Shown: piece after piece, positions 8,009 through 59,295 of the stretch
How positions within the stretch are numbered: the first letter of the stretch is position 1
How the letters are laid out: the number at the start of each line of letters is the position of its first letter
Assembly (NCBI GenBank): GCA_903813345.2
Contig: CAIIXF020000002.1
Coordinates: 7,957,555 to 8,021,554 of the forward strand
From: Owenia fusiformis
Lineage: Eukaryota; Annelida; Polychaeta; Sabellida; Oweniidae
Length of the DNA stretch: 64,000 bases
Direction: 5' to 3'
The notes under the pieces: model-generated
Databases searched by the model: none
Told to the model about the DNA's origin: nothing
The model's input: the letters and a program-made list of their open reading frames with translations, nothing else
Made by a program: the position numbers and the translations under genes

Positions 8009-8072
8009 CAATTTTTACAAAACCATTTTCTGACCTGTATTGTAATTGAAGAACAAATTATGTACGATTCAG

Positions 8073-18583: not shown

Positions 18584-19298
18584 AACAGCTTCACTGAACA
18601 CAATATTGTATTTAGGAGGAATACGATGGATGCATTTCATACATAAAAACAGCCATTCGATTAATTAATAAGACACTCAATAATTCAAATATGTCCGAGA
18701 GGTTTCAATATATTAACCTGGCATAAAATGACCTGACGCTGCAGATGTATTTGACCACGTAGATGTACACAGGACTGTAGGAATATGATATTGCATACAG
18801 TCTGATTGACTACAAGATACTTTTTTCTAATACCTTTCAACCAGCGGATAAAAAAGCAAAGAGGCTGAAATGCGTACTCTATCTAGTAACTATTGAACGA
18901 TAAATCGCCACTCTGAAGAAATATACGATAGTCAATTACTCAAGTCTTTCGACCAGCCGACTGATGAAAAATCAAAGAAACTAAATTTGAGGAATTGAAC
19001 CCTTATTGAGGCGCACAGAATAAAATATTGCCTTGGCGTTTAACTAAATGGATTGTAAAGTAATGCTATGGGACATGCCTTTATGGAGCAATCACGCATA
19101 CATATTATTTTCATGGAGTCGGAGGCTTATAAGATAGTGTGAGCCAGATCGGACAAAAATTGTAAATTATGATTAAATGGTTTGAAGGATGACACACTGT
19201 CCCAACGGTGTGTTCTACTGTTCCGTAGGATTGGGATTCTAAAATAAATCGCTTGGATTAACTGATATACTAAATACAGCATCCGTATTTCTTACCTA

Positions 19299-21350
19299 AT
19301 GCTCATGATGCTTCGTTGCAAATGTCACCCCGCTTCATCTAAAGCGCAAATATTGATCGCCGCCATTTTCATAATGTCTGTATTTACGTTCTGGACATCA
19401 CTATTACCGTATGAAGCAGCATCATGCGATCTTAACAACCCTCGAGTCGTTCACGTAAAAGCCGGGTGCTTGTGTAATAACGAAAAACGGGGACAACCCC
19501 CTACAGTAAAAGAACCACCTTATCAGTTCATGGAAGATACTCGCAGGCTCCAAGACACTTTAACTGATACATTAGAATTTACCAAGAGACTTGAAGCAGA
19601 ATTAAATAAGATAAAAAGCTCACTTGGGACGTTCATAAAGAGAAGTCGTAGCGGTGAAGTTATAATGGGAATACAGAATTCGATGGGCAAATTACAAGGG
19701 CTCCAGGATTTAATGAAAGAAAAATATCAGATAATACAACAATCAAATTCATACAAACACAGACTAGGTGGAAAAGAATTGGTGCCATCTGAAAAAGAGT
19801 TGGTACAGCCTGAAAAAGAATTGGTACCGACAGAAAAAGAGTTGGTACAACCTGGAAAAAGGTACCTTGTGTGTCCAGAAATGTTTAATGGAACGACATT
19901 CGGGTATCCATTTTTCTATGAAGGTTTTGTAGACCTGCCTTGTTACCACCCACCACTTTCAAGCTTGATCACTATCCTAATAAACATGGCAGATTACTCC
20001 CATCAAAATCATAAATCAATATCTGCAATTTTCAGAGGAGTATCAAAACATTTCAATGAAGTCCAATTGATAATTGGTCACCGTGCTGGACAAAATATAA
20101 AAAATGTCAAAATACATCATGGAGTCAATGTTAGTTTTTCAGAATTTTCTACAGAGGCAAATCCTGGCTTTATTTGGAATGAGCTCATTGGCCAAGTGAA
20201 GACACAATTTGTTTTGATTGGTCGTGATTTGCAAATGCTTACATGGGACATACGCCTTGATAGGCTGATTCGAGAGTCGGAACTTATGGACACGCCTATT
20301 GTGGGAGGAGCTATAAGGACAAACGATGGCCATTGGTCAATAGGATGTCAGCAATTTCGTTTTAGAAATTACACATTGGTTTATAAAAGCGGATATGATC
20401 TCTCAAATCACGAATGTGTCTTTTGCGATCACCTACAGGGGCCATTCTTAGCCAAAACCAGATTCATGACGTTATATCCGTTTAGTACAAGTTTGCCAAG
20501 AGAGGTTTTATTTGAGTCATTTTTTCTAAATGTCAATCAACATTTAAAAAAACAATTCCCTTTGTGTCCAGACAGTATGTTTCACGTTGAAACCACGCCT
20601 ATTCCTGAGAGAGATATTTGGATCCCTTTTGCCAAACGTTGGAATGTATATCGTTTGCGTTTGTCATCCGGCCAACTGTATGAGTTTGATTGCAAGGAGA
20701 GTAAAACTGGATTTGACAGAGGAGATGGTATGGCCCAATCTCCATGCAGACTACAAGAGCTAGCTGATCTCATTAAAGCAGTTATGAGTTTGTGTGAAAA
20801 AAATAACATTTTATGCGAACTTCAGGAAGGCACTGCCTTAGGCGCCGTGAAGTTCAACAAAGTCTTACCATGGGAATTAGACGCTGATGTCACATTCCAT
20901 TCCTCAAACTTTTCGAAATTTGAAGCTCTTGCGAGTTCATTTCAGAAACTCGGGTATGGCTTGTCAGTTATTAAGAAACCTTGGTGTTGTGTCGACGGTG
21001 TCATAGCCGGAGGAATATTTAACGTTTACTCACAAAACTGGAATGTTGAAATGTACGGTCAACATTTAATGGATTCCGAAAAAATGATCCTTAAAGGGTT
21101 ATCCCCAACACAAGTGCACTTTGATGGTCAATGGGTTAATGTACCAACAAACCCCGGATTATTTGTAAGGAACCGTTATGGAAAGGAGGTGTACCAACAT
21201 GCCCAACATTGGATGACCTTAGGGCACTCAACAGGATGGACCCCATATATACCTTCCAAGTTTAAAACCTGCTCAAAACCAGGAGACATGGCCTGCTTAG
21301 ATCAGTTCTTAGCAGACGGCAATCTACAATTTGAGGAACCACTCATTTAG
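19299..21350 (+). CDS. fukutin-related (LicD/FKRP-like) transferase, copy 1
   Basis: One uninterrupted exon of 683 codons. A type II membrane anchor lies at about residues 16-33, followed by a probable coiled coil (about 75-140). Residues 164-188 hold four EKELVQP-like units. A stem/GT-like domain spans about 190-460 and a C-terminal LicD nucleotidyltransferase-type domain about 484-650. The LicD core reads GTALGAVK, then PWELDADV at 524-531; the family acidic cluster is WDxDxD, so the first Asp is Glu here while D528 and D530 remain. A WCCVDG motif follows at 562-567. Family members transfer phospho-linked groups such as ribitol phosphate onto glycans in the Golgi. The substrate here is unknown. 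Start ATG chosen because the upstream frame closes and the anchor follows at once; ATGs at 19305 and 19308 are alternatives. Confidence 0.85.
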   Translation: MLMMLRCKCHPASSKAQILIAAIFIMSVFTFWTSLLPYEAASCDLNNPRVVHVKAGCLCNNEKRGQPPTVKEPPYQFMEDTRRLQDTLTDTLEFTKRLEAELNKIKSSLGTFIKRSRSGEVIMGIQNSMGKLQGLQDLMKEKYQIIQQSNSYKHRLGGKELVPSEKELVQPEKELVPTEKELVQPGKRYLVCPEMFNGTTFGYPFFYEGFVDLPCYHPPLSSLITILINMADYSHQNHKSISAIFRGVSKHFNEVQLIIGHRAGQNIKNVKIHHGVNVSFSEFSTEANPGFIWNELIGQVKTQFVLIGRDLQMLTWDIRLDRLIRESELMDTPIVGGAIRTNDGHWSIGCQQFRFRNYTLVYKSGYDLSNHECVFCDHLQGPFLAKTRFMTLYPFSTSLPREVLFESFFLNVNQHLKKQFPLCPDSMFHVETTPIPERDIWIPFAKRWNVYRLRLSSGQLYEFDCKESKTGFDRGDGMAQSPCRLQELADLIKAVMSLCEKNNILCELQEGTALGAVKFNKVLPWELDADVTFHSSNFSKFEALASSFQKLGYGLSVIKKPWCCVDGVIAGGIFNVYSQNWNVEMYGQHLMDSEKMILKGLSPTQVHFDGQWVNVPTNPGLFVRNRYGKEVYQHAQHWMTLGHSTGWTPYIPSKFKTCSKPGDMACLDQFLADGNLQFEEPLI

Positions 21351-23015
21351 AGTCGTTCTTGGTGACTCCCTATCCTGTACAGTCCCCTCTATAAGTTTCA
21401 TTTGTAATTTAGTCCCTCGGGTAGGGATTAATACAGATGAAATTTTAAACATGTTTCTATATTTTTGAGGGGAGGGTACACAGGTACATAAAGCATCACT
21501 CACTGCCATGACCAATTTTAATTGTATATGACGTGCAAGGACCTGGGGACAATTCGGGAAATGCGGGCTGATCTCAGCATTGAGCGTTAATCTCTACCTC
21601 ATTTAAAAAGCTAACTATGTGTTTTATATACCTTTTTGAAGTATTTTTTATTTGCATTTCAGTGAAATTATTTTTCCTTCAAAATTTTGATGGGATCCTA
21701 CATATTTTTAAAGTTAAATATACCCCGACATCGTCAAATACGCTGTAAGACGTAACACTATGCGCTTACGGGGCTCGTTGAAATTGGGATAACTTTTGAA
21801 ATAATGATCAAAATCGCACTAAAATTTCACATTTTATTCAATCGAACATGTGCATTTATGACGTCACAATTGCTTGACGGCTACAGTTCAAATTATCTTA
21901 AAACGAACGCTTTTAAAAATCTAAAAATTGTGTAAGGTTTTGAAGGCGAATGGGACGAGCAATAAGTTTACCTTCATTTAACCTTCTAATTTAGGTCTGA
22001 TTTGAAAGAAAAATTAACTGCACAATATTGTCATGGCGAAATTAACAAAACAATAACCAGTTTGTCTATTTTTCAAATAATATTAAAATAAGAGCTGGTT
22101 TTCGAGACTTGAAAAAAATGTGACGCATCGATTTTGTACCACAAATTCCATACATATCAATATTTACTAACGCCCCAAATGGATTTAGAAATATTGTCCT
22201 CGAGATCTTGCTACCCTGTGAATTTTGTAAAGATTAGATAACGATAAAGTATTTTATTTTTAGGTTGAGTAAACTTGTAAAAAATGTGACGCTTGTCGTT
22301 TTTGACGTTGTAAGGCTGTTTGCGCCCTATACTGCTCATTGTTTTGTTTTGTTTTTTTGACGCCATAATGTTACGCTAATTGTCCCCAGTTTCGTGCGAC
22401 GTGTAGTAGCCATTTTGAGTTTTTGATTTGAACTATATCGAGCCTCGTTCGATTGATAACTGAAACGTATCAGTACATACTCTGTAAAGATCACAATTCT
22501 AATCTCAAGCTGCTCATTTTTAATCCATAGTGATATTTTTTATTTATTAATAATTTTATTGTTTTTTGATCTAAGTCATTACGACATTGTAGCTGATTTA
22601 TTTTGAAGTTTTGTTACCATGTTGATACAGTAACTTTTCATTCAATATGATCAATACAAAGATTTTTATGTAACTATCAGCTAGAAAAAAAACAATTATT
22701 TAAATGAGAATCGGAGACAGAAGCAACTCTGTCAAAACAGTGTCTTAATTTCTATCATCTCAAAATCCAAAAGGTTCATATATTTTAATAAATTTAGAAT
22801 TCAATCAGGAGTGAACAATATTGACACAGTAAGATTTTCTATCTCCGATTCTCGCTATATAAATTGGCTTTTTGAGTAGGTTTGCTCTCAAGTATAGAGA
22901 CAGACTGATGTCACTTCTCTTGAATCAGCTGATTATACATTTTATATATTTCTTTTACTAATATTTTACAAATAAATGATACATAATAGGAAACACGTAA
23001 ATGACTACAAGTAGA
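21351..23015. other. 3' flank of FKRP-like copy 1; weak inverted repeats only
   Basis: There is no gene-like frame. Two low-confidence inverted repeats are visible. One has ACCTGGGGACAATT at 21541 with its inverse ending at 22391. The other is a ~150-bp hairpin at 22705-22857 (GAGAATCGGAGA with its inverse). Either could be an old MITE. Confidence 0.4.
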
Positions 23016-23019
23016 ATGA

Positions 23020-23608
23020 TTGTTGAAAATGGAAATGTATAACTTTGGGAAAAAATGTACTCATGTTTAAAAGCGGAACAATAATGAAAAGACGAATATA
23101 TAATTGGGGGAAGACATGTATATGTTTAAAACCAGAATAATTGTTGAAAGAGGAAATGTAGAATAGGGGAAAAATATGTAAATGTTTAAAAACAGAATAA
23201 TGGTTGAAATGGAAATGTATGATATTGGGAAAAACATTTAAACGTTTAAAAGCAGAATAATGGTTGAAAGGGGAAATGTATGATATTGGGAAAGATATGT
23301 AAATGTCTAAAAACAGAATAATGGTTGAAAGGGGAATGCATGATATTGGGAAAAAAACATTTAAATGTTTAAAAGCAGAATAATGGTTGAAAGGGGAAAT
23401 GTATAATATTGGGAAAAAAACATTTAAATGTTTAAAAGCAGAATAATGGTTGAGAGGGGAAATGTATGATATTGGGAAAAAAACATTTAAATGTTTAAAA
23501 GCAGAATAATGGTTGAAAGGGGAAATGTATAATATTGGGAAAAAAACATTTAAATGTTTAAAAGCAGAATAATGGTTGAAAGGGGAAATGTATAATATTG
23601 GGAAAAAC
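23020..23608. repeat. 59-63 bp minisatellite, about 10 copies
   Basis: The unit contains AAAGCAGAATAATGGTTGAA and GGGAAATGTATAATATTGGG. The copies at the 3' side are nearly identical and those at the 5' side are diverged. It lies between FKRP-like copy 1 and the homologous 3' flank, and has no counterpart in copy 2. Confidence 0.85.
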
Positions 23609-25004: not shown

Positions 25005-25826
25005 CAGGACAACCTTGTAATTAGAGCCAACTCAGTGGAGTGTGACATTGTATAATAACTGGACACATGTAAGTGTATTTTTTATAATAATTATCATTTA
25101 TAAGCAACAAATAATGCCAGAAACCCGGGGCATACAATTGACTTCATTGAACACAGTATGCCTATTGTAATTAGATAAGATGCGTTTCATGCATAAACGC
25201 AGCCTTTCAATTAATAAGAGACTCGACATTTCAAATGTATCCGAAAGGTTTCAATATATTAACTTGACACAAAATAACCTGACGCTGTTCATTGATGTAT
25301 TTGACCACGTACTATGTGCGTACAGGGCTGTAGAATATGGTCTTGCATACAGTCTGATTTGCTGCATTATATGGAGCATTATTTTCTTTAATATCTTCAA
25401 CCAGCAGAAACAGGAACTAATCTTTCGACCAGCTAAATCAGAAGCAAGGGAGCTAAAATGTGTTCCATATCTAGGAACTGTTTAACAATAAATCGTTAAT
25501 TTGAAAAAATATATGATAGACTATTATTTAATTCTTTCGACCAGCCGTGTGACTAAAAAAGTCAGGGAACTATTGTATAACTTTAATTACAACAACCGAA
25601 GGAAAATTCAAAGAAAAATTGCACTGGCGTTAACTAAATGGATGGGAAGCAATAGGAGCGATCGTGCATTCATGGGATTGGAGACTCGTACATGTACGAC
25701 ATCGTACAAGGATTGAAGATAATGATCAACTTGTTTCAAGGATGTCAGCGGACCCTATTTTGTTCTACCGCTTGGATTAACTGATATCGTAAATACAGAA
25801 TCCGTATTTCCTTCTTGATCCTCGCG

Positions 25827-27791
25827 ATGCTCCGTGGCAAAATCCATCGCGCCTCATCTATTGAAATATTGATCGTCGTCATCTTCATAATGCCTGTATT
25901 TATGTTCTGGACATCTCTGATGCAGTATGAAGCAAAATCGTGCGACCTTTACAACCCTCAAGTTATTCATGTGAAAGAGTACCCGCGTACAGTTAAAAAA
26001 ACATATTCCAAGCTCGTAGATGATGCTCGCAGACTCCAAGACACGTTAACTAGTACATTAGAATTTACCGAGAAAATTGAAGCAGAATTGAATAAGATAA
26101 GAAGCTCATTAGGGACACTTGTAAAGAGAAGCCGTAGCGGCGAAGTTATAATGGGAATACAGAGTTCGATAGGCAAATTACAAGAGCTACAGAATTTAAT
26201 GAAAGAAAAATATCAGATCGCACAACCGTCCAATTCATACGAACACATACTGGGTCGAAAAGAATTCGTGCCAACTGATAAAGAGTTGGTGCAATCTGGA
26301 AGAAAGTACCTCGTGTGTCCAGAAAAGTTTAATGGATCGAAATTCGGGTATCCATTCTTCTACAAAGGTTTTGTAGATCTACCTTGTGACCACCCTCCTC
26401 TCTCTAGTTTGATCACCATCCTGATTAATATGGCAGATTACTCCCATAAAAATCATAAATCAATATCTGCAATTTTCAGAGGAGTATCAAAACATTTTAA
26501 TGAAGTCCAATTGATAATTGGTTACCGTATTGGACAATATATTAGAACTATCAAAACACATGGAGTCAATGTCCGTTTTTCAGAATTTTCCACAAAGGCA
26601 AATCCTGGATTTATTTGGAATAAGCTCATTGGTCAAGTGATGACACAATTTGTTTTAATTGGTCGTAATTTGCAAATGCTTACATGGGACATACGCATTG
26701 ATAGGCTAATTCGAGAGTCAGAACTCATGGACACGCCTATTGTGGGAGGAGCTATACGGACAAACGATGGCCATTGGTCAATGGGATGTCAGCAATTTCG
26801 TTTAAGAAACTACACATTGGTTTATAAAAGTGGGTATGATCTCTCAAATCATGAATGTGTGTTTTGCGATCACCTACAGGGGCCATTCTTAGCCAAAACC
26901 AGATTCATGACGTCATATCCGTTTAGTAGAACTTTACCAAAAGAGGTGTTATTTGAGTCATTTTTTCTAAATCTCAATCAACATTTGAAAAAACAATTCC
27001 CTTTGTGTCCAGACAGTATGTTTCACGTTGAAACCACGCCTATTCCTGAAAGAGATATTTGGATTCCTCTTGCGAAACGTTGGAATTTATATCGTCTGCG
27101 TTTGTCATCCGGGCAACTGTATGGGTTTGATTGCAAGAAGAGCAAAACTAGGTTTAACAGAGAAGCTGGTATGGCCCAACCTCCATGCAGACTACAAGAG
27201 CTAACTGATTTCATTAAAGCAGTTATGAGTTTGTGTGAAAAAAATAACATTTTATGCGAACTTCAGGAAGGCACTGCCTTAGGCGCCGTGAAGTTCAACA
27301 AAGTCTTACCATGGGAATTAGACGCTGATATCACATTCCATTCCTCAAACTTTTCTAAATTTGAATCTCTGGCGAGTTCATTCCGGCAACTTGGGTACAA
27401 GTTAGTAGTGAAGAGCCGACCTTGGTGTTGTGTCGACGGCGTTATAGCCGGTGGAATATTTAATGTTTTCTCACAAAACTGGAAAGTTGAAATGTACGGT
27501 CAACATTTAATGGATTCCGAAAAAATGATCCACAGAGGGTTAACCCCAACACAAGTGCACTTTGATGGTCAATGGGTTAATGTACCAACAAACCCCGGAT
27601 TATTTGTAAGGAACCGTTATGGAAAGGAGGTGTACCAACATGCCCAACATTGGATGACCTTAGGGCACTCAACAGGATGGACCCCTTATGTACCTTCCAA
27701 GTTTAAAACCTGCTCAAAACCAGGAGATATGGCCTGCTTAGATCAGTACTTAGCAGACGGAAATCTACAATTTGAAGAACCACTTATTTAG
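25827..27791 (+). CDS. fukutin-related (LicD/FKRP-like) transferase, copy 2
   Basis: One uninterrupted exon of 654 codons from the ATG that aligns with the internal start of copy 1; an upstream in-frame TTG at 25815 is not needed. Anchor, coiled coil, stem domain and LicD domain are in the same order as in copy 1. The acidic core reads PWELDADI from residue 495 (D499 and D501), followed by the same WCCVDG motif. The last ~100 residues are almost identical to copy 1, while the N-terminal third is more diverged. It lacks the GCLCNNEKRGQP insert and the expanded EKELVQP units of copy 1. Both copies are intact, which suggests both are or were recently functional. Shared upstream AG acceptor sites (about 17935 and 25006) hint at a spliced 5' UTR exon. 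Confidence 0.85.
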   Translation: MLRGKIHRASSIEILIVVIFIMPVFMFWTSLMQYEAKSCDLYNPQVIHVKEYPRTVKKTYSKLVDDARRLQDTLTSTLEFTEKIEAELNKIRSSLGTLVKRSRSGEVIMGIQSSIGKLQELQNLMKEKYQIAQPSNSYEHILGRKEFVPTDKELVQSGRKYLVCPEKFNGSKFGYPFFYKGFVDLPCDHPPLSSLITILINMADYSHKNHKSISAIFRGVSKHFNEVQLIIGYRIGQYIRTIKTHGVNVRFSEFSTKANPGFIWNKLIGQVMTQFVLIGRNLQMLTWDIRIDRLIRESELMDTPIVGGAIRTNDGHWSMGCQQFRLRNYTLVYKSGYDLSNHECVFCDHLQGPFLAKTRFMTSYPFSRTLPKEVLFESFFLNLNQHLKKQFPLCPDSMFHVETTPIPERDIWIPLAKRWNLYRLRLSSGQLYGFDCKKSKTRFNREAGMAQPPCRLQELTDFIKAVMSLCEKNNILCELQEGTALGAVKFNKVLPWELDADITFHSSNFSKFESLASSFRQLGYKLVVKSRPWCCVDGVIAGGIFNVFSQNWKVEMYGQHLMDSEKMIHRGLTPTQVHFDGQWVNVPTNPGLFVRNRYGKEVYQHAQHWMTLGHSTGWTPYVPSKFKTCSKPGDMACLDQYLADGNLQFEEPLI

Positions 27792-28770: not shown

Positions 28771-29790
28771 CCTATTTTTATCGCACCCTCAGGTGCTATA
28801 TTGTAATCAGTTTGCCGGGCGGGCGGGCGGGTGGTTGGGCGGGCGTCCCGAATAATCAGCCAAACCGTTATTTGAGGGATTCATTTGAAATTCTCAGGGA
28901 TGTTTCTACTTATGAAAGTTTAGAACTGATTAGTTTTTCATGAAATTCTCAGGGATGTTTCTACCTATGAAAGTTTAGAACTGATTAGTTTTTCGGCATT
29001 CTGGGTAAATGTTAAGGCGGCCATTTTGGATTTTCCGTCCCAAAATCTTGTCTGTCAAGGCTTGTCTACAGGTTTCTAGCCAAACCGTTTGAGGGATTCA
29101 TTTGAAATTGTCAGGGATGTTTCTACCTATGAAAGTTTAGAACTGATTAGTTTTTCGACATTCTGGATAAATGTTAAGACGGCCATTTTGGATTTTCCGT
29201 CCTAAAATCTTGTCTGTCACGGCTTGTCTACAGGTTTCCAGCCAAACCGTTTGAGGGATTCATTTGAAATTCTCAGGGATGTTTCTACCTATAAAAGTTT
29301 AGAACTGATTAGTTTTTCGGCATTCTTGGTAAATGTTAAGGCGGCCATTTTGGATTTTTCGTCCTAAAATCGTGTCTGTGAAGGCTTGCTTTTAAAAAAT
29401 AAAAAAGAATTTCCCATTGAGAGCAATGTTGAATTAAAACATTTTTTAGAAATAACTAAACGGTCAATCTTTCCAATTTTCACATATTTTGTAATACATC
29501 AGTATATCTTTTACCATGATTTTTTCAGGAAAATCTGAATTGTAGAAAAAAAGCTGATACACTGTGAAGTAATACCTTAAAACGTGTCTCTTGAGGGTTG
29601 TTTACAGGTTTCATGGATTCATCCTAAAATTTTAGAGATGTTTCTATGGAAAGTTTAGAACTGATTAGTTTTAGGCAGTCTGGGTAAATGTTAAGGTGGC
29701 CATTTTGAATTTTCCATCCAGAAAAGTGTATTCTGTTCAAGGGTGCGATTCTGTTCACCGTGTGGCTTATTATACCTTGCTAACGATACT
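28771..29790. repeat. block of ~162-bp tandem units with GGTGCGA-type borders
   Basis: About three full units repeat CTGATTAGTTTTTCG, GGCCATTTTGGATTTTCCGTCC and GCCAAACCGTTTGAGGG at a period near 162 bp, followed by a more diverged copy. A TCGCACCCTCAGG motif is at the start and GGGTGCGATTCTG near the end. A related block in reverse orientation is at 35463-36130. Confidence 0.75.
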
Positions 29791-35412: not shown

Positions 35413-36752
35413 GTTTTCTAAAAGTATCAAACAAAACCTAAGAAGATACAGAGTGAATGGTATCGCACCCTTGAACAGAACAAACAGCTTTTGAGACATA
35501 AAGTCCAAAATGGCTGCCTAAACATTTACCCATAATGCCCTAAAACTAATCAGTTGTTGACTATCATACCAAGAAACATCTCAACAGACAACATTTTAGG
35601 ATGGAAACTCCAAAATGGTTACCATCACATTTACCCAGAATGCCCAAAAACGAATCAGTTCTAAACTTTCAAATGTAGAAACATTCATGAAAATTTTGGA
35701 CGTATCCCTGAAACAGTTTTGGTGGAAACCTGTAAACAAGCCTTGAGAGACAAGATTTTAGGACGGAAAATTCAAAACAGCTGCCTTTACATTTACCCAG
35801 AATGCCCAAAAACTAATCAGTTATAAACATTCATACATAGTAACATTTCTGACAATTTCAGATGAATCCTTGAAACTGACTGGAACCTATAGACAAACAT
35901 CAACAGACATGATTTTAAGACGAAAAATCTAAAATTGCCACCATAAAATTTACCAAGAATGCCCAAAAATTCTAAACTTTTATACTTAAACACATCCCTC
36001 AAAATTTCAGATGCATCCGTCAAACAGTTTGGCTGGAAACCTGTTGACAAGTCTCGACAGACAAGACTTCAGGATGGAAAATTTTAAATGGCCACCTTTA
36101 CATTTACCAAGAGTGCCCAACTAGCAACATTGTGGTAATAATCATTTTTAGTAAATGTTTAGAGGTAGATCTCAAGGGTTACACTCTCCCCAGATTTAAT
36201 GAGAGGCAGATTGCTTGACAATGCTGCAATCCTTTTGTGGTATGTTTTCATTGTTTACGAAAGCCTTGAACCCTGTTATCGTAAAGCTGTACGTCTCAAA
36301 AGTTTTATGATGTAATTTCTGCCATCATTGATGAACTGAAATCATGAATAGACTATATAGGAAAATGTATCAAGTCCTTTTTGACACTCATAATTATACG
36401 GGGATCAAAAAAAGGCGTTCTCCATAAAACAAAAATAAAAAATGTGGAGAAAAATGGATCCGTTCTCAAATGGTGGATGTGGGGCCCCTGGTTGCCACAT
36501 GCACCCCTTCCCCTATTTTTGGGTAAAACATATCTCTGTGAAGAGTAAACAAAGAAAGTAAACAGGCTTCAAATAACAATACATTGACAGAAAACGAGAA
36601 AAAGTTTCAAAACTTACTTTCTTTAACTCTTCCAATTAGAGATTTTCATGACACACCCCAAATAACTTCCGGCAAAATAAAAAAATTGTCACAGACAGGG
36701 CTCATTTAAAACACTGTTTTTATTTAGAATCTATCCAAGTCATTCATACAAA
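35413..36752. other. head-to-head intergenic region between MITD1 and ANKRD39
   Basis: The 1.34-kb spacer separates the two divergent start codons. Most of 35463-36130 is four worn copies of the 162-bp repeat family in reverse orientation to 28771-29790, so any shared promoter is probably in 36130-36752. No core promoter motif could be assigned with confidence. Confidence 0.5.
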
Positions 36753-43315: not shown

Positions 43316-43943
43316 AGCTATATCATCATTTCATATGGCTATTTTCATCTAGAATTGAGAGTGTGAAATAACATGTTCATCCATCCTGTTGTATCGTAAG
43401 CTACATGTACAGTAGCACATATAGTAATTTCGTATGTGAAGTAGTCATGCTGATCTAGCAAATATGAATATGATGAATGCGTGGGTATTTCTTTGAACCA
43501 TACACCCCTATCCAAAAGTTTTCCAGCCCTGACTGCCCTATGTGTAGCTTATGCACGTTTAAGCTTGTTGAATTTTGAAATTAAGTTTTAATTCCAATCA
43601 GGAGGAGATCTAGAATCTATGAGAAGGGTATTTTTTAAAATCAGAAAATACACATAGACTTTATAACAGTGCTGGTTTTGATGAAACAGTTGGGGTTTCC
43701 AAACATCAGGAGAGGGGTGTACAATGAATGTTAATAAATTTAGTACTAATTTGATAAAAATGAAATACCAAATGAAACGTGACTTTTGATATGTCATTAA
43801 TTTATCTCTGTCATGAATCGCTATAAAACAATGCTGTGTGTTAGATGCTTCTACAGAACTGAAGGGCCCTCGCAGCAAGCAATTATTGTTTACAGACGTA
43901 CTGAACCAAAAGGCGTGATTTCAACAGGCAATTTATTACAAAG

Positions 43944-44983
43944 ATGTTGAGGGTGCTTGTAGTATTGGTTTACATGGTGACATATGGAGGGACAACTGGT
44001 GACAGAACACCCCTCGGGAACTCAATAAATGCGTTTGCGCTTGATTTGTACAATGAGCTATTGGGTTGTATGAATGATTCGGTAAATGACAGCATGGTTA
44101 TAAGCCCGTTTAGTATCTCGACTGCATTTGGAATGGCGTATCTCGGAGCTGCTGGAGACACAGCGACTCAAATCGCCCGCGTTCTGAAGTATCCAACAAA
44201 TGTACATGAACAGTTTGAGGCTCTTCTGACAAACATAGCTTTCTCAGATGAGAACTACAAACTGAACGCTGCAAATAATGTATTCCCGCTAACTGGTTTG
44301 GAGATTCGGCCCCAGTATGTGAGTGATGTCCTTCAGTTTTACTTAGCAGCAATAAAAGAACTTGACTTTCAGAAATATCCTGAGGAATCCAGACAGTATA
44401 TTAACGAATGGGTGTCCAACAAAACAATGGAGAAAATTCCCGAATTGCTGCATAGAGGTGATGTCAATAGTGGCACTGTCCTTGTGCTGGTGAACGCCAT
44501 CTACTTCAAGGGAGATTGGCTGACCCAATTCAACCCAAACGTCACATCAATTGTAGATTTTTACGTGTCTCCTCTGCAACGGATCTCTGTTGATATGATG
44601 CATAGCCAGGACATATACAGATATATCGAAGACCCAGTACTAGATGCTCAAGTACTGCAACTTCCATACACAGGGGAGGAAGTTAGTATGATTGTCATAT
44701 TACCAAAAAATCAAAATGGCCTTCCTGACCTTGAGGCATCGTTAACTACAAGCAACTTGGACGAAGCCATCGCAAAACTCTACGCTCCTTACTCGTCTAT
44801 TCTAGTAGATGTACATTTGCCTTAAATTCAAAATGGAGTGGAGGGGTGACCTAGTTGGATATCTCCAAAAACTGGGAATGTTGGATGCATTTTCGTCCAG
44901 AGCCGACTTCTCACCTCTCTCTCCGCATGTCCCGTTTATCACAAAAGTCATCCATAAGGCTATTGTAGAGGTAAACGAGAAGG
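43944..44983 (+). pseudogene. serpin (serine protease inhibitor family), frameshifted and lacking its C-terminal end
   Basis: The frame opens with a hydrophobic signal peptide, then a serpin body: SMVISPFSISTAFGMAYLGA (breach/shutter region), VNAIYFKGDW, and LPYTGEEVSMIVILP. At 44820-44824 a TTGCCTTAAA reads as a stop. Dropping one T would continue as LPKFK, the normal serpin strand, so there is a 1-nt insertion or a sequencing error. The second frame runs DLVGYLQKLGMLDAFS to the hinge start EVNEKG, where a good donor (GG/GTAAG) ends the exon at 44983. I could not find the exon for the reactive-centre loop and the final strands in the ~1.5 kb downstream. Without it the protein cannot inhibit. 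Serpin exon borders near the loop are common, so a distant exon remains possible. Confidence 0.8.
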
Positions 44984-46551: not shown

Positions 46552-49500
46552 TTATTTACACCGTTTTGCTTTTCTTTCTGCGATTGATTTAATTACAGAA
46601 CCAGTGTCTCTGAGCAAAGAGTCAAATATCGCATCAGCAATTCGCGTTTTTACAGAAAATTCATCAGCGTCAAAATTCACAAATTCCTTTTCTTCAGTTC
46701 GTAATTCCTGCTCTAATATCCTATCTATGCGATCTTTCTTCTTTTTACCCACCCATTTGGTTCTGCTTTCCGTTTTCGTTTTTTGAACTAAACCAAGAGA
46801 TTGTAAAATCTCATTCTCCACAAGAGGACGCAATTCACAAAGTTTTGTGGGAGCTGACCTCCCTTTGAAATACTGTTTTTTGATTGGCTTAGGTTTCATC
46901 CATGTGGCATATTCATCTTCCTCATCCTCGTCCTGATAAATATCAACCATTAGCTCGCCAACCAAATCAAACACTAGGTGTTTATATGCTCGTTTGCTGT
47001 TCGCTTTCATGTCAGTGCCTCTCTCGGGTTTCAGGAAATATGGCGGAGCTTGAACGCCTTTCAGAGACTGCCTAGATATCCTTTGAGCCCAGTATACATC
47101 CAGAGCATAAGAGATAACCTTTTTCACTTCTGAGTGTTCTTCCGATACTTTCTGTAAGTTGAGTTTGTTTGACTCTTGCCTGGCCACGGAAGCTCCTTTA
47201 ACATCTGTGATTAACTCCTTTACTTCTGGTTGTTTTTCTGGTAATTTCTGTAAGTCGAGGTGGTTGGAATCTTGCCCGGAGGCCGCGGAGGCTCCTCTTC
47301 CATCACTGAGAGGGCCAGAGTAGAGAGGGGGAGACTTCCTGAGGATCCTACGTTTCCCAACTCCAAGATCACCATAAAAAAATTTTCCTGTTCATTAACT
47401 AACACAAATGAGTCCTTAAGGTCATCTTTTTGTGTTATAAAAGCATCATCAATTAGTCCCACATTTTCTTCATAATCGCACAGTAAATCTAATCTTCGAC
47501 TTAAAGAAGTGTTCGATACTTTCTGTAAGAGTTTGTTTGATTCTTCCTTGGTCTCGGGAACTCCTTTTGCATCCGAGATTAACTCATTCACTTCTGGTTG
47601 TTCTTCTGCTAATTTCTGTAAGTTGAGTTTGCTTGATTCTTCCTTGGTCACGGAATCTCCTTTTGCATCCGAGATTAACTCATTCACTTCTGGTTGTTCT
47701 TCTTGTGATTTCTGTAAGTTGAGTTTGTTTGATTCTTCCTTGGTCACGGAAACTCCTTTTGCATCCGAGATTAACTCATTCACTTCTGGTTGTCCTTCTG
47801 GTAATTTCTGTAAGTTGAGTTTGCTTGATTCTTCCTTGGTCACGGAAGCACCTTTCTCATCCGAGATTAACTCTTTCACTTCTGGTTGTCCCTCTGGTAA
47901 TTTCTGTAAGTTGAGTTTGCTTGATTCTTCCTTGGTCACGGAAATTCCTTTTGCATCCGAGATTAACTCATTCACTTCTGGTTGTTCTTCTGGTAGGCCT
48001 AATTTCTGTAAGTTGAGTTTGTTTGATTCTTCCTTGGTCACGGAAACTCCTTTTGCATCCGAGATTAACTCATTCACTTCTGGTTGTTCTTCTGGTAGGC
48101 CTAATTTCTGTAAGTTGAGTTTGTTTGATTCTTCCTTGGTCTCGGGAACTCCTTTCTCATCCGAGATTAACTCTTTCACTTCTGGTTGTCCCTCTGGTAA
48201 TTTCTGTAAGTTGAGTTTGTTTGATTCTTCCTTGGTCACGGAGACTCCTTTTGCATCCGAGATTAACTCATTCACTTCTGGTTGTTCTTCTGCTAATTTC
48301 TGTAAGTTGAGTTTGCTTGATTCTTCCTTGGTCACGGAATCTCCTTTTGCATCCGAGATTAACTCATTCACTTCTGGTTGTTCTTCTGGTGATTTCTGTA
48401 AGTTGAGTTTGTTTGATTCTTCCTTGGTCACGGAAACTCCTTTTGCATCCGAGATTAACTCATTCACTTCTGGTTGTCCTTCCGGTAATTTCTGTAAGTT
48501 GAGTTTGTTTGATTCTTCCTTGGTCACGGAAACTCCTTTTGCATCCGAGATTAACTCATTCACTTCTGGTTGTTCTTCTGGTAATTTCTGTAAGTTGAGT
48601 TTGTTTGATTCTTCCTTGGTCTCGGGAACTCCTTTCTCATCCGAGATTAACTCTTTCACTTCTGGTTGTCCCTCTGGTAATTTCTGTAAGTTGAGTTTGT
48701 TTGATTCTTCCTTGGTCACGGAAACTCCTTTTGCATCCGAGATTAACTCATTCACTTCTGGTTGTTCTTCTGGTAATTTCTGTAAGTTGAGTTTGTTTGA
48801 TTCTTCCTTGGTCTCGGGAACTCCTTTCTCATCCGAGATTAACTCTTTCACTTCTGGTTGTCCCTCTGGTAATTTCTGTAAGTTGAGTTTGTTTGATTCT
48901 TCCTTGGTCACGGAAACTCCTTTTGCATCCGAGATTAACTCATTCACTTCTGGTTGTTCTTCTGGTAATTTCTGTAAGTTGAGTTTGTTTGATTCTTCCT
49001 TGGTCTCGGGAACTCCTTTCTCATCCGAGATTAACTCTTTCACTTCTGGTTGTCCCTCTGGTAATTTCTGTAAGTTGAGTTTGTTTGATTCTTCCTTGGT
49101 CACGGAAACTCCTTTCTCATCCGAGATTAACTCTTTCACTTCTGGTTGTTCTTCTGGTAATTTCTGTAAGTTGAGTTTGTTTGATTCTTCCTTAGTCACG
49201 GGAACTCCTTTTGCATCCGAGATTAACTCATTCACTTCTGGTTGTCCTTCCGGTAATTTCTGTAAGTTGAGTTTGTTTGATTCTTCCTTGGTCACGGAGA
49301 CTCCTTGTGCATCCGAGATTAACTCATTCACTTCTGGTTGTTCTTCTGGTAATTTCTGTAAGTTGAGTTTGTTTGATTCTTCCTTGGTCACGGAATCTCC
49401 TTTTGCATCCGAGATTAACTCATTCACTTCTTGTTGTTCTTCTGGTAATTTATTGAAGTTGAGTTTGTTTGATACTTCCTTGGTCTCGGAAACTCCTTTT

Positions 49501-52500
49501 GCATCCGAGATTAACTCATTCACTTCTGGTTGTTCTTCTGGTAATTTCTGTAAGTTGAGTTCGTTTGATTCTTCCTTGGTCACGGAGACTCCTTGTGCAT
49601 CCGAGATTAACTCATTCACTTCTGGTTGTTCTTCTGGTAATTTCTGTAAGTTGACTTTGTTTGATTCTTCCTTAGTCACGGAAACTCCTTTTGCATCCGA
49701 GATTAACTCATTCACTTCTGGTTGTTCTTCTGGTAATTTCTGTAAGTTGACTTTGTTTGATTCTTCCTTGGTCACGGAAACTCCTTTTGCATCCGAGATT
49801 AACTCATTCACTTCTGGTTGTTCTTCTGGTAATTTCTGTAAGTTGACTTTGTTTGATTCTTCCTTAGTCACGGAAACTCCTTTTGCATCCGAGATTAACT
49901 CACTCACTTCTGGTTGTTCTTCTGGTAATTTCTGTAAGTTGACTTTGTTTGATTCTTCCTTGGTCACGGAAACTCCTTTTGCATCCGAGATTAACTCATT
50001 CACTTTTGGTTGTTCTTCTGGTAATCTCTGTAAGTTGAGTTTGTTTGATTCTTCCTTGGTCACGGAAACTCCTTTTGCATCCGAGATTAACTCATTCACT
50101 TTTGGTTGTTCTTCTGGTAATTTCTGTAAGTTGACTTTGTTTGATTCTTCCTTAGTCACGGAAACTCCTTTTGCATCCGAGATTAACTCATTCACTTCTG
50201 GTTGTTCTTCTGGTAATTTCTGTAAGTTGACTTTGTTTGATTCTTCCTTGGTCACGGAAACTCCTTTTGCATCCGAGATTAACTCATTCACTTTTGGTTG
50301 TTCTTCTGGTAATCTCTGTAAGTTGAGTTTGTTTGATTCTTCCTTGGTCACGGAAACTCCTTTTGCATCCGAGATTAACTCATTCACTTTTGGTTGTTCT
50401 TCTGGTAATCTCTGTAAGTTGAGTTTGTTTGATTCTTCCTTGGTCTCGGAAACTCCTTTTGCATCCGAGATTAACTCATTCACTTCTGGTTGTTCTTCTG
50501 GTAATTTCTGTAAGTTGAGTTTGCTTGATTCTTCCTTGGTCACGGAAACTCCTTTTGCATCCGAGATTAACTCATTCACTTCTGGTTGTTCTTCTGGTAA
50601 TTTATGTAAGTTGAGTTTGTTTGATTCGTCCTTGGTCACGGAAGCACCTTTCTCATCCGAGATTAACTCATTCACTTCTGGTTGTTCTTCTGGTAATTTC
50701 TGTAAGTTGAGTTTGCTTGATTCTTCCTTGGTCACGGAAACTCCTTTTGCATCCGAGATTAACTCATTCACTTCTGGTTGTTCTTCTGGTAATTTCTGTA
50801 AGTTGAGTTTGCTTGATTCTTCCTTGGTCACGGAAACTCCTTTTGCATCCGAGATTAACTCATTCACTTCTGGTTGTTCTTCTGGTAATTTATGTAAGTT
50901 GAGTTTGTTTGATTCGTCCTTGGTCACGGAAGCACCTTTCTCATCCGAGATTAACTCTTTCACTTCTGGTTGTCCCTCTGGTAATTTCTGTAAGTTGAGT
51001 TTGTTTGATTCTTCCTTGGTCACGGAGACTCCTTTTGCATCCGAGATTAACTCATTCACTTCTGGTTGTTCTTCTGGTAATTTCTGTAAGTTGAGTTTGT
51101 TTGATTCTTCCTTGGTCTCGGGAACTCCTTTCTCATCCGAGATTAACTATTTCACTTCTGGTTGTCCCTCTGGTAATTTCTGTAAGTTGAGTTTGTTTGA
51201 TTCTTCCTTGGTCACGGAAACTCCTTTTGCATCCGAGATTAACTCATTCACTTCTGGTTGTTCTTCTGGTAATTTCTGTAAGTTGAGTTTGCTTGATTCT
51301 TCCTTGGTCACGGAAACTCCTTTTGCATCCGAGATTAACTCTTTCACTTCTGGTTGTTCTTCTGGTAATTTCTGTAAGTTGAGTTTGTTTGATCCTTCCT
51401 TGGTCACGGAGACTCCTTGTGCATCCGAGATTAACTCATTCACTTCTGGTTGTTCTTCTGGTAATTTCTGTAAGTTGAGTTTGTTTGATTCTTCCTTGGT
51501 CTCGGGAACTCCTTTCTCATCCGAGATTAACTCTTTCACTTCTGGTTGTCCCTCTGGTAATTTCTGTAAGTTGAGTTTGTTTGATTCTTCCTTGGTCACG
51601 GAAACTCCTTTTGCATCCGAGATTAACTCATTCACTTCTGGTTGTTCTTCTGGTAATTTCTGTAAGTTGAGTTTGCTTGATTCTTCCTTGGTCACGGAAA
51701 CTCCTTTTGCATCCGAGATTAACTCATTCACTTCTGGTTGTTCTTCTGGTAATTTCTGTAAGTTGAGTTTGTTTGATTCTTCCTTGGTCACGGAGACTCC
51801 TTGTGCATCTGAGATTAACTCTTTCACTTCTGGTTGTTCCTCTGGTAATTTCTGTAAGTTGAGTTTGTTTGATTCTTCCTTGGTCACGGAGACTCCTTGT
51901 GCATCCGAGATTAACTCTTTCACTTCTGGTTGTTCCTCTGGTAATTTCTGTAAGTTGAGTTTGTTTGATTCTTCCTTGGTCACGGAGACTCCTTTTGCAT
52001 CCGAGATTAACTCATTCACTTCTGGTTGTTCTTCTGGTAATTTCTGTAAGTTGAGTTTGTTTGATTCTTCCTTGGTCACGGAGACTCCTTGTGCATCCGA
52101 GATTAATTCTTTCACTTCTGGTAGTTCTCCTGGTAATGTATGGAAGTTGAGTTTGTTTGATTCTTCCTTGGTCACGGAAACTCCTTTTGCATCCGAGATT
52201 AACTCATTCACTTCTGGTTGTTCCTCTGGTAATTTCTGTAAGTTGAGTTTGTTTGATTCTTCCTTGGTCACGGAGACTCCTTTTGCATCCGAGATTAACT
52301 CTTTCACTTCTGGTTGTTCCTCTGGTAATTTCTGTAAGTTGAGTTCGTTTGATTCTTCCTTGGTCACGGAAACTCCTTTTGCATCCGAGATTAACTCATT
52401 CACTTCTGGTTGTTCCTCTGGTAATTTCTGTAAGTTGAGTTTGTTTGATTCTTCCTTGGTCACGGAAACTCCTTTTGCATCCGAGATTAACTCATTCACT

Positions 52501-55500
52501 TCTGGTTGTTCTCCTGGTAATGTATGGAAGTTGAGTTTGTTTGATTCTTCCTTGGTCACGGAAACTCCTTTTGCATCCGAGATTAACTCATTCACTTCTG
52601 GTTGTTCCTCTGGTAATTTCTGTAAGTTGAGTTTGTTTGATTCTTCCTTGGTCACGGAGACTCCTTTTGCATCCGAGATTAACTCTTTCATTTCTGGTTG
52701 TTCCTCTGGTAATTTCTGTAAGTTGAGTTCGTTTGATTCTTCCTTGGTCACGAAAACTCCTTTTGCATCCGAGATTAACTCTTTCACTTCTGGTTGTCCC
52801 TCTGGTAATTTCTGTAAGTTGAGTTCGTTTGATTCTTCCTTGGTCACGGAAGCTCCTTTTGCATCCGAGATTAACTCATTCACTTCTGGTTGTTCCTCTG
52901 GTAATTTCTGTAAGTTGAGTTTGTTTGATTCTTCCTTGGTCACGGAGACTCCTTTTGCATCCGAGATTAACTCTTTCATTTCTGGTTGTTCCTCTGGTAA
53001 TTTCTGTAAGTTGAGTTCGTTTGATTCTTCCTTGGTCACGAAAACTCCTTTTGCATCCGAGATTAACTCTTTAACTTCTGGTTGTCCCTCTGGTAATTTC
53101 TGTAAGTTGAGTTCGTTTGATTCTTCCTTGGTCACGGAAGCTCCTTTTGCATCCGAGATTAACTCATTCACTTCTGGTTGTTCCTCTGGTAATTTCTGTA
53201 AGTTGAGTTTGTTTGATCCTTCCTTGGTCACGGAAGCTCCTTTTGCATCCGAGATTAACTCATTCACTTCTGGTTGTCCTTCCGGTAATTTCTGTAAGTT
53301 GAGTTCGTTTGATTCTTCCTTGGTCACGGAAGCTCCTTTTGCATCCGAGATTAACTCATTCACTTCTGGTTGTCCCTCTGGTAATTTCTGTAAGTTGAGT
53401 TCGTTTGATTCTTCCTTGGTCACGGAAGCTCCTTTTGCATCCGAGATTAACTCATTCACTTCTGGTTGTTCCTCTGGTAATTTCTGTAAGTTGAGTTTGT
53501 TTGATCCTTCCTTGGTCACGGAAACTCCTTTTGCATCCGAGATTAACTCATTCACTTCTGGTTGTCCCTCTGGTAATTTATGTAAGTTGAGTTTGTTTGA
53601 TCCTTCCTTGGTCACGGAGACTCCTTTTGCATCCGAGATTAACTCATTCACTTCTGGTTGTCCTTCCGGTAATTTCTGTAAGTTGAGTTTGTTTGATTCT
53701 TCCTTGGTCACGGAGACTCCTTTTGCATCCGAGATTAACTCATTCACTTCTGGTTGACCTTCTGGTAATTTCTGTAAGTTGAGTTTGTTTGATTCTTCCT
53801 TGGTCTCGGGAACTCCTTTCTCATCCGAGATTAACTCTTTCACTTCTGGTTGTCCCTCTGGTAATTTCTGTAAGTTGAGTTTGTTTGATTCTTCCTTGGT
53901 CACGGAAACTCCTTTTGCATCCGAGATTAACTCATTCACTTCTGGTTGTTCTTCTGGTAATTTCTGTAAGTTGAGTTTGCTTGATTCTTCCTTGGTCACG
54001 GAAACTCCTTTTGCATCCGAGATTAACTCATTCACTTCTGGTTGTTCTTCTGGTAATTTCTGTAAGTTGAGTTTGTTTGATTCTTCCTTGGTCACGGAGA
54101 CTCCTTGTGCATCTGAGATTAACTCTTTCACTTCTGGTTGTTCCTCTGGTAATTTCTGTAAGTTGAGTTTGTTTGATTCTTCCTTGGTCACGGAGACTCC
54201 TTGTGCATCCGAGATTAACTCTTTCACTTCTGGTTGTTCCTCTGGTAATTTCTGTAAGTTGAGTTTGTTTGATTCTTCCTTGGTCACGGAGACTCCTTTT
54301 GCATCCGAGATTAACTCATTCACTTCTGGTTGTTCTTCTGGTAATTTCTGTAAGTTGAGTTTGTTTGATTCTTCCTTGGTCACGGAGACTCCTTGTGCAT
54401 CCGAGATTAATTCTTTCACTTCTGGTAGTTCTCCTGGTAATGTATGGAAGTTGAGTTTGTTTGATTCTTCCTTGGTCACGGAAACTCCTTTTGCATCCGA
54501 GATTAACTCATTCACTTCTGGTTGTTCCTCTGGTAATTTCTGTAAGTTGAGTTTGTTTGATTCTTCCTTGGTCACGGAGACTCCTTTTGCATCCGAGATT
54601 AACTCTTTCACTTCTGGTTGTTCCTCTGGTAATTTCTGTAAGTTGAGTTCGTTTGATTCTTCCTTGGTCACGGAAACTCCTTTTGCATCCGAGATTAACT
54701 CATTCACTTCTGGTTGTTCCTCTGGTAATTTCTGTAAGTTGAGTTTGTTTGATTCTTCCTTGGTCACGGAAACTCCTTTTGCATCCGAGATTAACTCATT
54801 CACTTCTGGTTGTTCTCCTGGTAATGTATGGAAGTTGAGTTTGTTTGATTCTTCCTTGGTCACGGAAACTCCTTTTGCATCCGAGATTAACTCATTCACT
54901 TCTGGTTGTTCCTCTGGTAATTTCTGTAAGTTGAGTTTGTTTGATTCTTCCTTGGTCACGGAGACTCCTTTTGCATCCGAGATTAACTCTTTCATTTCTG
55001 GTTGTTCCTCTGGTAATTTCTGTAAGTTGAGTTCGTTTGATTCTTCCTTGGTCACGAAAACTCCTTTTGCATCCGAGATTAACTCTTTCACTTCTGGTTG
55101 TCCCTCTGGTAATTTCTGTAAGTTGAGTTCGTTTGATTCTTCCTTGGTCACGGAAGCTCCTTTTGCATCCGAGATTAACTCATTCACTTCTGGTTGTTCC
55201 TCTGGTAATTTCTGTAAGTTGAGTTTGTTTGATTCTTCCTTGGTCACGGAGACTCCTTTTGCATCCGAGATTAACTCTTTCATTTCTGGTTGTTCCTCTG
55301 GTAATTTCTGTAAGTTGAGTTCGTTTGATTCTTCCTTGGTCACGAAAACTCCTTTTGCATCCGAGATTAACTCTTTAACTTCTGGTTGTCCCTCTGGTAA
55401 TTTCTGTAAGTTGAGTTCGTTTGATTCTTCCTTGGTCACGGAAGCTCCTTTTGCATCCGAGATTAACTCATTCACTTCTGGTTGTTCCTCTGGTAATTTC

Positions 55501-56935
55501 TGTAAGTTGAGTTTGTTTGATCCTTCCTTGGTCACGGAAGCTCCTTTTGCATCCGAGATTAACTCATTCACTTCTGGTTGTCCTTCCGGTAATTTCTGTA
55601 AGTTGAGTTCGTTTGATTCTTCCTTGGTCACGGAAGCTCCTTTTGCATCCGAGATTAACTCATTCACTTCTGGTTGTCCCTCTGGTAATTTCTGTAAGTT
55701 GAGTTCGTTTGATTCTTCCTTGGTCACGGAAGCTCCTTTTGCATCCGAGATTAACTCATTCACTTCTGGTTGTTCCTCTGGTAATTTCTGTAAGTTGAGT
55801 TTGTTTGATCCTTCCTTGGTCACGGAAACTCCTTTTGCATCCGAGATTAACTCATTCACTTCTGGTTGTCCCTCTGGTAATTTATGTAAGTTGAGTTTGT
55901 TTGATCCTTCCTTGGTCACGGAGACTCCTTTTGCATCCGAGATTAACTCATTCACTTCTGGTTGTCCTTCCGGTAATTTCTGTAAGTTGAGTTTGTTTGA
56001 TTCTTCCTTGGTCACGGAGACTCCTTTTGCATCCGAGATTAACTCATTCACTTCTGGTTGACCTTCTGGTAATTTCTGTAAGTTGAGTTTGTTTGATTCT
56101 TCCTTGGTCACGGAAGCTCCTTTTGCATCCGAGATTAACTCATTCACTTCTGGTTGTTCTTCTGATAATTTCTGTAAGTTGAGTTTGTTTGATTCTTCCT
56201 TGGTCACGGAAGCTCCTTTTGCATCCGAGATTAACTCATTCACTTCTGGTTGTTCTTCTGATAATTTCTGTAAGTTGAGTTTGTTTGATCCTTCCTTGGT
56301 CACGGAAGCTCCTTTTGCATCCGAGATTAACTCATTCACTTCTGGTTGTTCTTCTGATAATTTCTGTAAGTTGAGTTTGTTTGATCCTTCCTTGGTCACG
56401 GAAGCTCCTTTTGCATCCGAGATTAACTCATTCACTTCTGGTTGTCCTTCCGGTAATTTCTTTAAGTTGAGTTTGTTTGATTCTTCCTTGGTCACGGAGA
56501 CTCCTTTTGCATCCGAGATTAACTCATTCACTTCTGGTTGACCTTCTGGTAATTTCTGTAAGTTGAGTTTGTTTGATTCTTCCTTGGTCACGAAAACTCC
56601 TTTTGCATCTGTGATTAACTCCTTTACTTCTGGTTGTTTTTCTGGTAATTTTTGTAAGTCAAGGTGGTTGGAATCTTGCTTGGAGGCGGAAGCTCCACTA
56701 TCATCACTGAGAGGGCCAGAGTAGAGAGGGGGAGGCTTCCTGAGGATCCTACGTTTCCCAACTCCAAGATCACCATAAAATCTTTCTTCCTGTTCATTTT
56801 CGAACACTATGCTGTCAGTAACGCCATCATTTTGTGTTTTGGAGCCATCGACAATCAGTCCGACATTTTCTTCATAATCGCACAGTAAACCTAATCTCCG
56901 ACTCGAAGAAGTACTGGTTTCTTGCTTCAAAGAAA
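46552..56935 (-). CDS. CEP350-like C-terminal tail protein with a ~95-unit 32-residue repeat array; interrupted by one stop and one frameshift
   Basis: The exon opens at a strong acceptor (TATTTTCAG, 56936-56944). It encodes a unique segment with LLCDYEENVGLI and GVGKRRILRK, then ~95 repeats of about 32 residues (consensus LPEEQPEVNELISDAKG plus VSVTKEESNKLNLQK). A second copy of the unique segment follows, then a ~210-residue tail. The tail (VFDLVGEL, WMKP, KKKKDRIDRILEQELRTEE, FVNFDADE, IADAIFDSLL) matches the C-terminus of the centrosomal protein CEP350 as I know the family. CEP350 itself is ~3100 aa with a CAP-Gly domain, not seen here. Two breaks are visible: TAG at 51147-51149 in place of GAG in one repeat, and a 1-nt loss in an A/T run at about 47377-47384. 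Beyond that run the correct frame continues without stops to 46552. The repeat unit is acidic (net about -3), with no Cys or Trp. Confidence 0.7.
47220..47515 (-). repeat. 3' copy of the unique segment flanking the repeat array (frameshifted)
   Basis: It matches 56640-56935 in order: LCDYEENVGLI, a variable ~25-residue stretch, EQE, VGKRRILRK, PPLYSGPLSD, QDSNHLDLQKLPEKQPEVKE. A single-base loss after GAACAGGAAA puts the last part out of frame with the array. Confidence 0.8.
51457..56064. repeat. 2304-bp (24-unit) tandem duplication inside the array
   Basis: 51457-53760 and 53761-56064 read the same at every point I compared, including rare variants (GCATCTGAG, GGTAATGTATGG, CTCTTTAACTTC) in the same order. 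The deduced proteins also look identical. The join is seen at 53750-53765 (GGTTGACCTTC). Confidence 0.85.
56640..56935 (-). repeat. 5' copy of the unique segment flanking the repeat array (in frame)
   Basis: This copy lies directly after the exon's acceptor and reads in frame into the first repeat unit. Its ERFYGDLGVGKRRILRK stretch shows what the frameshifted 3' copy should encode. Confidence 0.8.
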
Positions 56936-57043
56936 CTGAAAATACAGTTAAAGTATATCTTAGTAAATGGTGGTCCAAAAAGTGAAGCCTTGCATTAAGC
57001 CATATCTCAGTTATTATCCACATTAATGGGATAAGGTTCTCAC

Positions 57044-58768: not shown

Positions 58769-59295
58769 CACTGGTACTCACCTAGTTACCCTGACGATAC
58801 GTCAGTGTAACATGGCGGAACTACATCCGGGACTCGGTTTCGGTAAGATAATTTTATTTCTCGATTTACACCTACTTATAAGTCACGTATTGGATAATAA
58901 TTTGGCAAGAAGTTAATGAAGATAATCTAGTTTGAGAATGTGCTGGTGGTCTTAGGTTTGGTATTCTAACGTAGACGTAATTCACATATTTAGTTCCTCG
59001 CTTTTGTTACACTGACGATCGGTATGAATATTGCCAATATTGGTCGTTCGTCAGTGTAACAAAAGCGAGGGACTAAATATGTGAATTGCGTCTTCGTTAA
59101 CATACCAGACCTAAAAACATCGATACATTCTCAACTAGACTATCTTCCTTAACTTTGAGCCAAATTATTATCCACAGCGTGACTTATAAGTAGGTGTAAA
59201 TCGAGAAATTAAAATATCGTACCGAAACTTGGTCCCGGGAGTTGATCCGCCATGTTACACTGACGTATCGTCAGGGTAACAGGTGAGTACCAGTG
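58769..59295. mobile_element. 527-bp palindromic element, CACTG ends, 5-bp target duplication
   Basis: The ends CACTGGTACTCACC and inverse are flanked by GTTAT on both sides (58764-58768 and 59296-59300). Near-complete inverted arms meet at a centre with CGCTTTTGTTACACTGACG. It is the same family as 18059-18583. No coding sequence is present. Confidence 0.85.

Follow-up and report, generated by a model that had tools for sequence, protein, structure and literature searches.

We found that a locus on the minus strand of contig C2 is, by sequence homology, a partial duplicate of the centrosomal gene CEP350, and that it is most probably a dispersed copy of the 3' end of that gene, in which a short unit would have been expanded as a minisatellite and which, as assembled, appears to be disabled. 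The window, i.e., the whole stretch of DNA that was analysed, comprises 64,000 nucleotides (C2:7957555-8021554), and genome searches covered the 498-Mb assembly of 525 contigs. The locus may be compared to minisatellites that arise within coding exons, and to pseudogenes or partial copies of genes, all known as general kinds. The locus resembles them in its tandem 96-bp unit, a recent block duplication, variation of the unconstrained type, a stop and a frameshift, whereas the length of the array (9.1 kb) and a tail with past purifying selection set it apart; a minisatellite in a partial CEP350 duplicate is ordinary in kind and long in extent. Literature searches found nothing on a CEP350 retrocopy, those combining CEP350 with tandem repeats gave type 1 diabetes only, and those on CAP350 paralogs, duplication or invertebrates gave no title on a CEP350 duplicate among the matches listed. 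On the minus strand the order is U1, 95 units of 96 bp, an 18-nt remnant with U1' (a second copy of U1), a last unit with a stub, and the CEP350 tail; these features, and one related fragment on contig C4, are as follows:

56935-56661, minus strand: U1, an exon-like segment, with an acceptor-like TTTTCAG just upstream
56660-47529, minus strand: 96-bp array, 95 units of 32 codons, consensus NLQKLPEEQPEVNELISDAKGVSVTKEESNKL
56084-51477, minus strand: two consecutive 24-unit blocks of 2,304 bp
51149-51147, minus strand: in-frame TAG in unit 58 (consensus GAG)
47528-47257, minus strand: 18-nt unit remnant, then U1' from about 47510
47256-47107, minus strand: final complete unit (47256-47161) with stub, sharing the frame of the tail
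47106-46552, minus strand: CEP350 C-terminal tail, 184 aa and stop
47007-46609, minus strand: DUF4378 match inside the tail
C4:28344400-28344546, minus strand: decayed U1 fragment, with TAG and TGA in frame

The array consists of 95 contiguous units arranged head to tail (TRF score 15956, far beyond chance), and the sense strand of its unit is the minus strand, as the first-pass annotation had proposed. Head-to-tail units of tens of base pairs, with a change of copy number by duplication of a 24-unit block, characterize it as a minisatellite. The two 24-unit blocks do not differ at any of their 2,304 bases, the exact match reaching 2,351 bp, and have arisen either by duplication in the very recent past or in the course of assembly. 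The number 95 should be read as the assembled value of one haplotype. Over the whole 9.1 kb there is a single stop, and the insertions are of a single kind, the same in-frame 6-bp insertion being present in units 90 and 91. A protein database search with residues 40-300 of the array frame gave no match at E <= 0.001 among 7,999 scored candidates. Pfam matches of the array frames (DNA_pol3_finger, DUF5926, RabGap-TBC_2, DUF1869) were rejected as repeat artefacts, no single stretch passing alone, and an AlphaFold2 model of five units, made without an alignment, has a mean pLDDT of 39.5 and supports no structural claim.

The tail had been recognized as a CEP350 C-terminus, and the similarity on which that identification depended was found. 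In a tblastn search of the window and 60 kb upstream with four CEP350 proteins, the tail was matched at E 2e-41 to 2e-28, with no N-terminal or middle region of CEP350 detected in the same interval, and a Pfam DUF4378 match over the family cut-off (E 2.1e-7) places it among CEP350 C-terminal tails of the DUF4378 type. A genome search with the tail found two places, the window and contig C175 (2 matches, 60 candidates scored), which are 78% identical. With the last exon of C175 as the search region of a longer query, 32 proteins were found at E <= 0.001 among 1,211 candidates; 26 of these 32 are named, 25 as CEP350, CEP350-like or CE350-like and one as hypothetical. The 211-aa tail alone gave nothing at E <= 0.001 among 93 candidates, all proteins of similar length, and the tail frame had no relative in the PDB at E <= 1. 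For alignment, we picked 13 CEP350 proteins from the 32 found, from a nemertean, a brachiopod, molluscs, hemichordates, sea stars and vertebrates, and the 184-aa tail is alignable with all of them; those of Tubulanus (nemertean) and Lingula (brachiopod) are closest to this animal's CEP350 among the proteins found, so that the animal is probably a lophotrochozoan. Compared to CEP350, the locus is without the CAP-Gly, N-terminal and middle regions, has AVPH deleted and 95 units placed before the tail, and carries seven changes near the C-terminus at columns kept by 12 or 13 of the 13 proteins. Two papers on human CAP350 describe motifs M3, M4 and M2 as common to plant TRM proteins, and FOP as recruited by the C-terminal M2 (PMC4357431, PMC6300067).

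It had also been proposed that the gene lacks the rest of CEP350, which holds at the locus, where there is no CAP-Gly domain or N-terminal part, but not genome-wide. A CAP-Gly search of the genome scored 27 candidates and gave 17 places, of which one is on C175, whereas the window locus has none. The CAP-Gly domain of C175 falls within an open frame of 919 aa, at 1.9 kb upstream from the exon with the second tail; used as a query, the CAP-Gly exon (917 aa) found itself and, on C12 and C1, three weak places. The CEP350 proteins of Lingula and Tubulanus align collinearly with C175 to the C-terminus, that of Lingula from about residue 1046. Exons on contig C9 at about 962.2-963.7 kb match residues 491-645 of Lingula CEP350, and Tubulanus CEP350 has an additional match at 960.5-960.7 kb (CEP350 region C9:960486-963943). 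C9 is chromosome-sized, and C175 is exactly 25,000 bp long, which suggests a fragment cut out in scaffolding; by these matches, the ordinary CEP350 is probably split by scaffolding between C9, with the N-terminal exons, and C175.

The comparison with C175 also shows where the repeated unit came from. The last exon of C175 holds one unit only, GASVARQELNKLNLQKLSEE-LFYAVPHK-QPEVKELISDA, followed by LDVYW, and the array unit equals this segment minus LFYAVPHK (24 nt). The AVPH motif is near-invariant in CEP350, P and H being present in 13 of the 13 proteins compared, and A and V in 12, and it is found neither in any of the 95 units nor in the last unit or stub. Since the unit is the native segment minus this highly conserved motif, the array is an expansion of a CEP350 segment and not a foreign fusion; the suggestion of a novel fusion is thereby withdrawn. 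The segment of the last full unit and stub keeps GASVARQE, like the single native unit of C175.

U1 and U1' are two copies of the preceding exon, on either side of the array. From about 56831 on, U1 is homologous to the penultimate exon of CEP350, which here runs straight into the beginning of the last exon with no intron in between; the 104 nt that precede this part (56935-56832) were not found in C175. Aligned to C175, U1 has a local score of 107.5 with the last intron removed and of 72 with the intron, and U1' has scores of 102 and 63; for the intron before the penultimate exon, U1 scores 107.5 with or without it, and U1' 102 versus 99.5. Thus, the loss of a parental intron, which is a criterion for retrocopies, is seen for the last intron, i.e., for one of two introns. 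The 5' parts of U1 and U1' had no significant match to the end of the upstream exon of C175 (shuffle fractions 0.19 and 0.37). Searches of the genome gave 78 matches for U1 as protein (96 candidates scored) and 4 for U1 as DNA, which comprise U1, U1', array units of the window (protein only), the penultimate exon of C175 and the C4 fragment. This fragment has the 5' extension of U1 and the same acceptor-like TATTTTCAG boundary, which argues that an older dispersed duplicate with that 5' part existed.

The array frame consists of two open stretches, 57047-51147 (1,966 aa, spanning U1 and 57 units) and 51146-47220 (1,308 aa), divided by the in-frame TAG. All 95 array units are in frame 0, and the last unit and the stub are in frame 2, which they share with the tail (47391-46552). 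Array and tail are out of frame because U1', compared to U1, carries a net 1-bp shift at a T7 run (47382-47376). The TAG and the 1-bp shift are, as assembled, disabling changes of the kind found in pseudogenes, and since the stop lies in the array and the tail is out of frame with it, the assembled sequence could not encode array and tail as one protein, unless by unproven splicing. About 3,000 residues of repeat had been placed directly ahead of the tail: the 95 units are there, but they are not in one frame directly before the tail; the TAG interrupts the array itself, and U1', which holds the frameshift, lies between array and tail. Likewise, the continuation of the repeat frame into the tail (ESNKLNLQKVSEEHSEVKK) is correct solely for the last unit and stub, and does not extend to the 95-unit array. 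It should be noted that the plus strand is also open across much of the array (2,093 aa), and that the openness of the array is weak evidence because 96 is a multiple of three. More generally, long open frames over a repeat whose length is a multiple of three do not by themselves show a protein.

We compared the variation among units to the expectation for unconstrained sequence. There are 48 distinct single-base variants among the 95 units, 36 missense, 11 silent and one stop, distributed over codon positions as 14/17/17; the expected proportions are 68.4% missense, 25.7% silent and 5.9% stop. Silent changes are not in excess (P(silent >= 11) = 0.78), and one stop is not below chance (P = 0.22). 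The five other frames, which served as a control, gave 10, 14, 12, 13 and 15 silent of 48, so that the coding frame has no enrichment for silent change. This spectrum fits neutral drift, or a spacer of indifferent sequence, and is compatible with both.

The tail has a different history. Over 184 codons it has 90 base differences from C175, 48 of them in third positions; dN is 0.11-0.12, dS is 0.35-0.50, and dN/dS is 0.24-0.31 by four methods. The 48 amino-acid substitutions in the last exon are unevenly divided, with 29 on the window branch, 4 on that of C175 and 15 undecided. Where 11 or more of the 13 other proteins share a residue, the window has changed in 15 of 52 columns and C175 in 3 of 52, the 52 being 56 columns minus four penultimate-exon columns left out of both rows (unadjusted, 19 and 7). 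Branch simulations (300 per setting, assuming equal branch times, C175 as the ancestor and an omega of 0.06 for C175) agree with an omega of about 0.4-0.6 on the window branch; values of 0.8 and 1 do not fit, as at each of them 0 of 300 runs had as few as the observed 41 amino-acid differences. Only 2 of 300 tails remained stop-free in neutral branch simulations; a simpler simulation left 11% of tails stop-free with 45 neutral substitutions and 1.7% with 90, and given the former value an open tail alone is not decisive. The tail was under relaxed but real constraint for much of its history, far less than C175, and the omega of about 0.4-0.6 indicates that the duplicate probably worked for part of its life.

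We infer the following order of events. The last two CEP350 exons, without the intervening intron, would have been copied to C2, and the copy would have lost the 24 nt for LFYAVPHK; amplification of the flanking 32-codon segment, presumably through slippage or unequal exchange, would then have produced the 95 head-to-tail units that lie between U1 and U1'. With selection relaxed, the tail would have kept its frame open during part of its history, and the locus presumably lacks function at present. How the copy was made may be read in two ways, both compatible with a disabled partial duplicate. It is possible, though tentative, that it is an mRNA-derived, 5'-truncated retrocopy and not a DNA-level duplication with intron loss. 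The missing intron between the last two exons points to a retrocopy, as do the restriction to the 3' end of the gene and the position on a different contig. However, the 3'UTR is not alignable (score 16 versus a shuffle mean of 15.5), no poly(A) is evident by eye in the 152 bases past the stop, the first 104 nt of U1 are not those of C175, and the acceptor-like TTTTCAG at the start of U1 is common to the decayed C4 copy, whose U1-like 5' part points to DNA-level duplication.

Against a disabled duplicate stand the evolution of the tail, which was not that of dead sequence throughout, the small number of disruptions in the 9.1-kb array (a single stop, and insertions of a single kind, in frame), and the unit spectrum, which a disordered coding spacer free of constraint would show as well; moreover, the stop and the shift could be assembly errors. 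If the latter were the case, the true allele would have one long frame, with an uncertain copy number. The position of the shift at a T7 run agrees with this, exactly identical 24-unit blocks could be assembler-made, and the exact 25,000 bp of C175 suggest a scaffolding fragment; yet in the TAG a T has replaced a G, which is not a homopolymer length error, and U1 and U1' differ beyond the T-run in that stretch, and we regard such errors as an unlikely explanation. It is very unlikely that the locus would be a working lineage-specific gene for a protein of acidic repeats, whether or not the CEP350 tail is included, serving as a length-variable spacer at the centrosome or cilium. The 1,966-aa open frame over U1 and 57 units, the acceptor-like boundary at 56936 and the past constraint on the tail would agree with such a gene, but the TAG in unit 58, the frameshift before the tail, the neutral-like variation of units, the missing AVPH, the replacement of near-invariant residues in the tail, and the lack of database matches to residues 40-300 of the array frame among the 7,999 scored candidates do not. 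The proposed length-variable centrosomal spacer appears unsupported, in view of the stop, the frame mismatch and the neutral-like unit variation. It is highly improbable that the CEP350 C-terminal duplicate would be a new lineage-specific repeat protein (from the 1,966-aa frame, or from a spliced array and tail), expressed as a spacer tunable by repeat number; were the locus expressed, it would offer a natural experiment on repeats of varying length ahead of a centrosomal tail. As a disabled partial duplicate, the locus shows how one exon segment of a conserved centrosomal gene can become, in a duplicated copy, an array of 9 kb.

Several other features were observed in the window. A serpin open frame (43905-44822, plus strand, E 7.5e-73) follows the CEP350-like tail at a distance of about 1.7 kb, on the opposite strand, and a Cys-loop ligand-gated ion channel is located at 3428-4654 on the plus strand (Neur_chan_LBD and Neur_chan_memb). 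Two similar long open frames on the plus strand, at 19266-21347 (694 aa) and 25785-27788 (668 aa), are likely a tandem pair; their LicD matches are weak (22.5 and 25.2 bits, with a cut-off of 22.6), and they may be fukutin-like. Rfam gave nothing at the gathering threshold in the window, and a tRNA-Cys predicted by ARAGORN at 19873-19963 on the minus strand, within a LicD-like open frame, is probably spurious. Further minisatellites have units of 41 bp (15.4 copies, 94% matches, 8068-8701) and 63 bp (10 copies, 83%, 22991-23607). Tandem arrays of a 162-bp unit are located at 28941-29388 and 35581-35969, and their consensuses look mutually reverse-complementary by eye. At about 58770-59295, a stretch of about 45 bp (GGTACTCACCTGTTACCCTGACG...) recurs as its complement some 0.45 kb away, and by eye the pair resembles a fold-back element.
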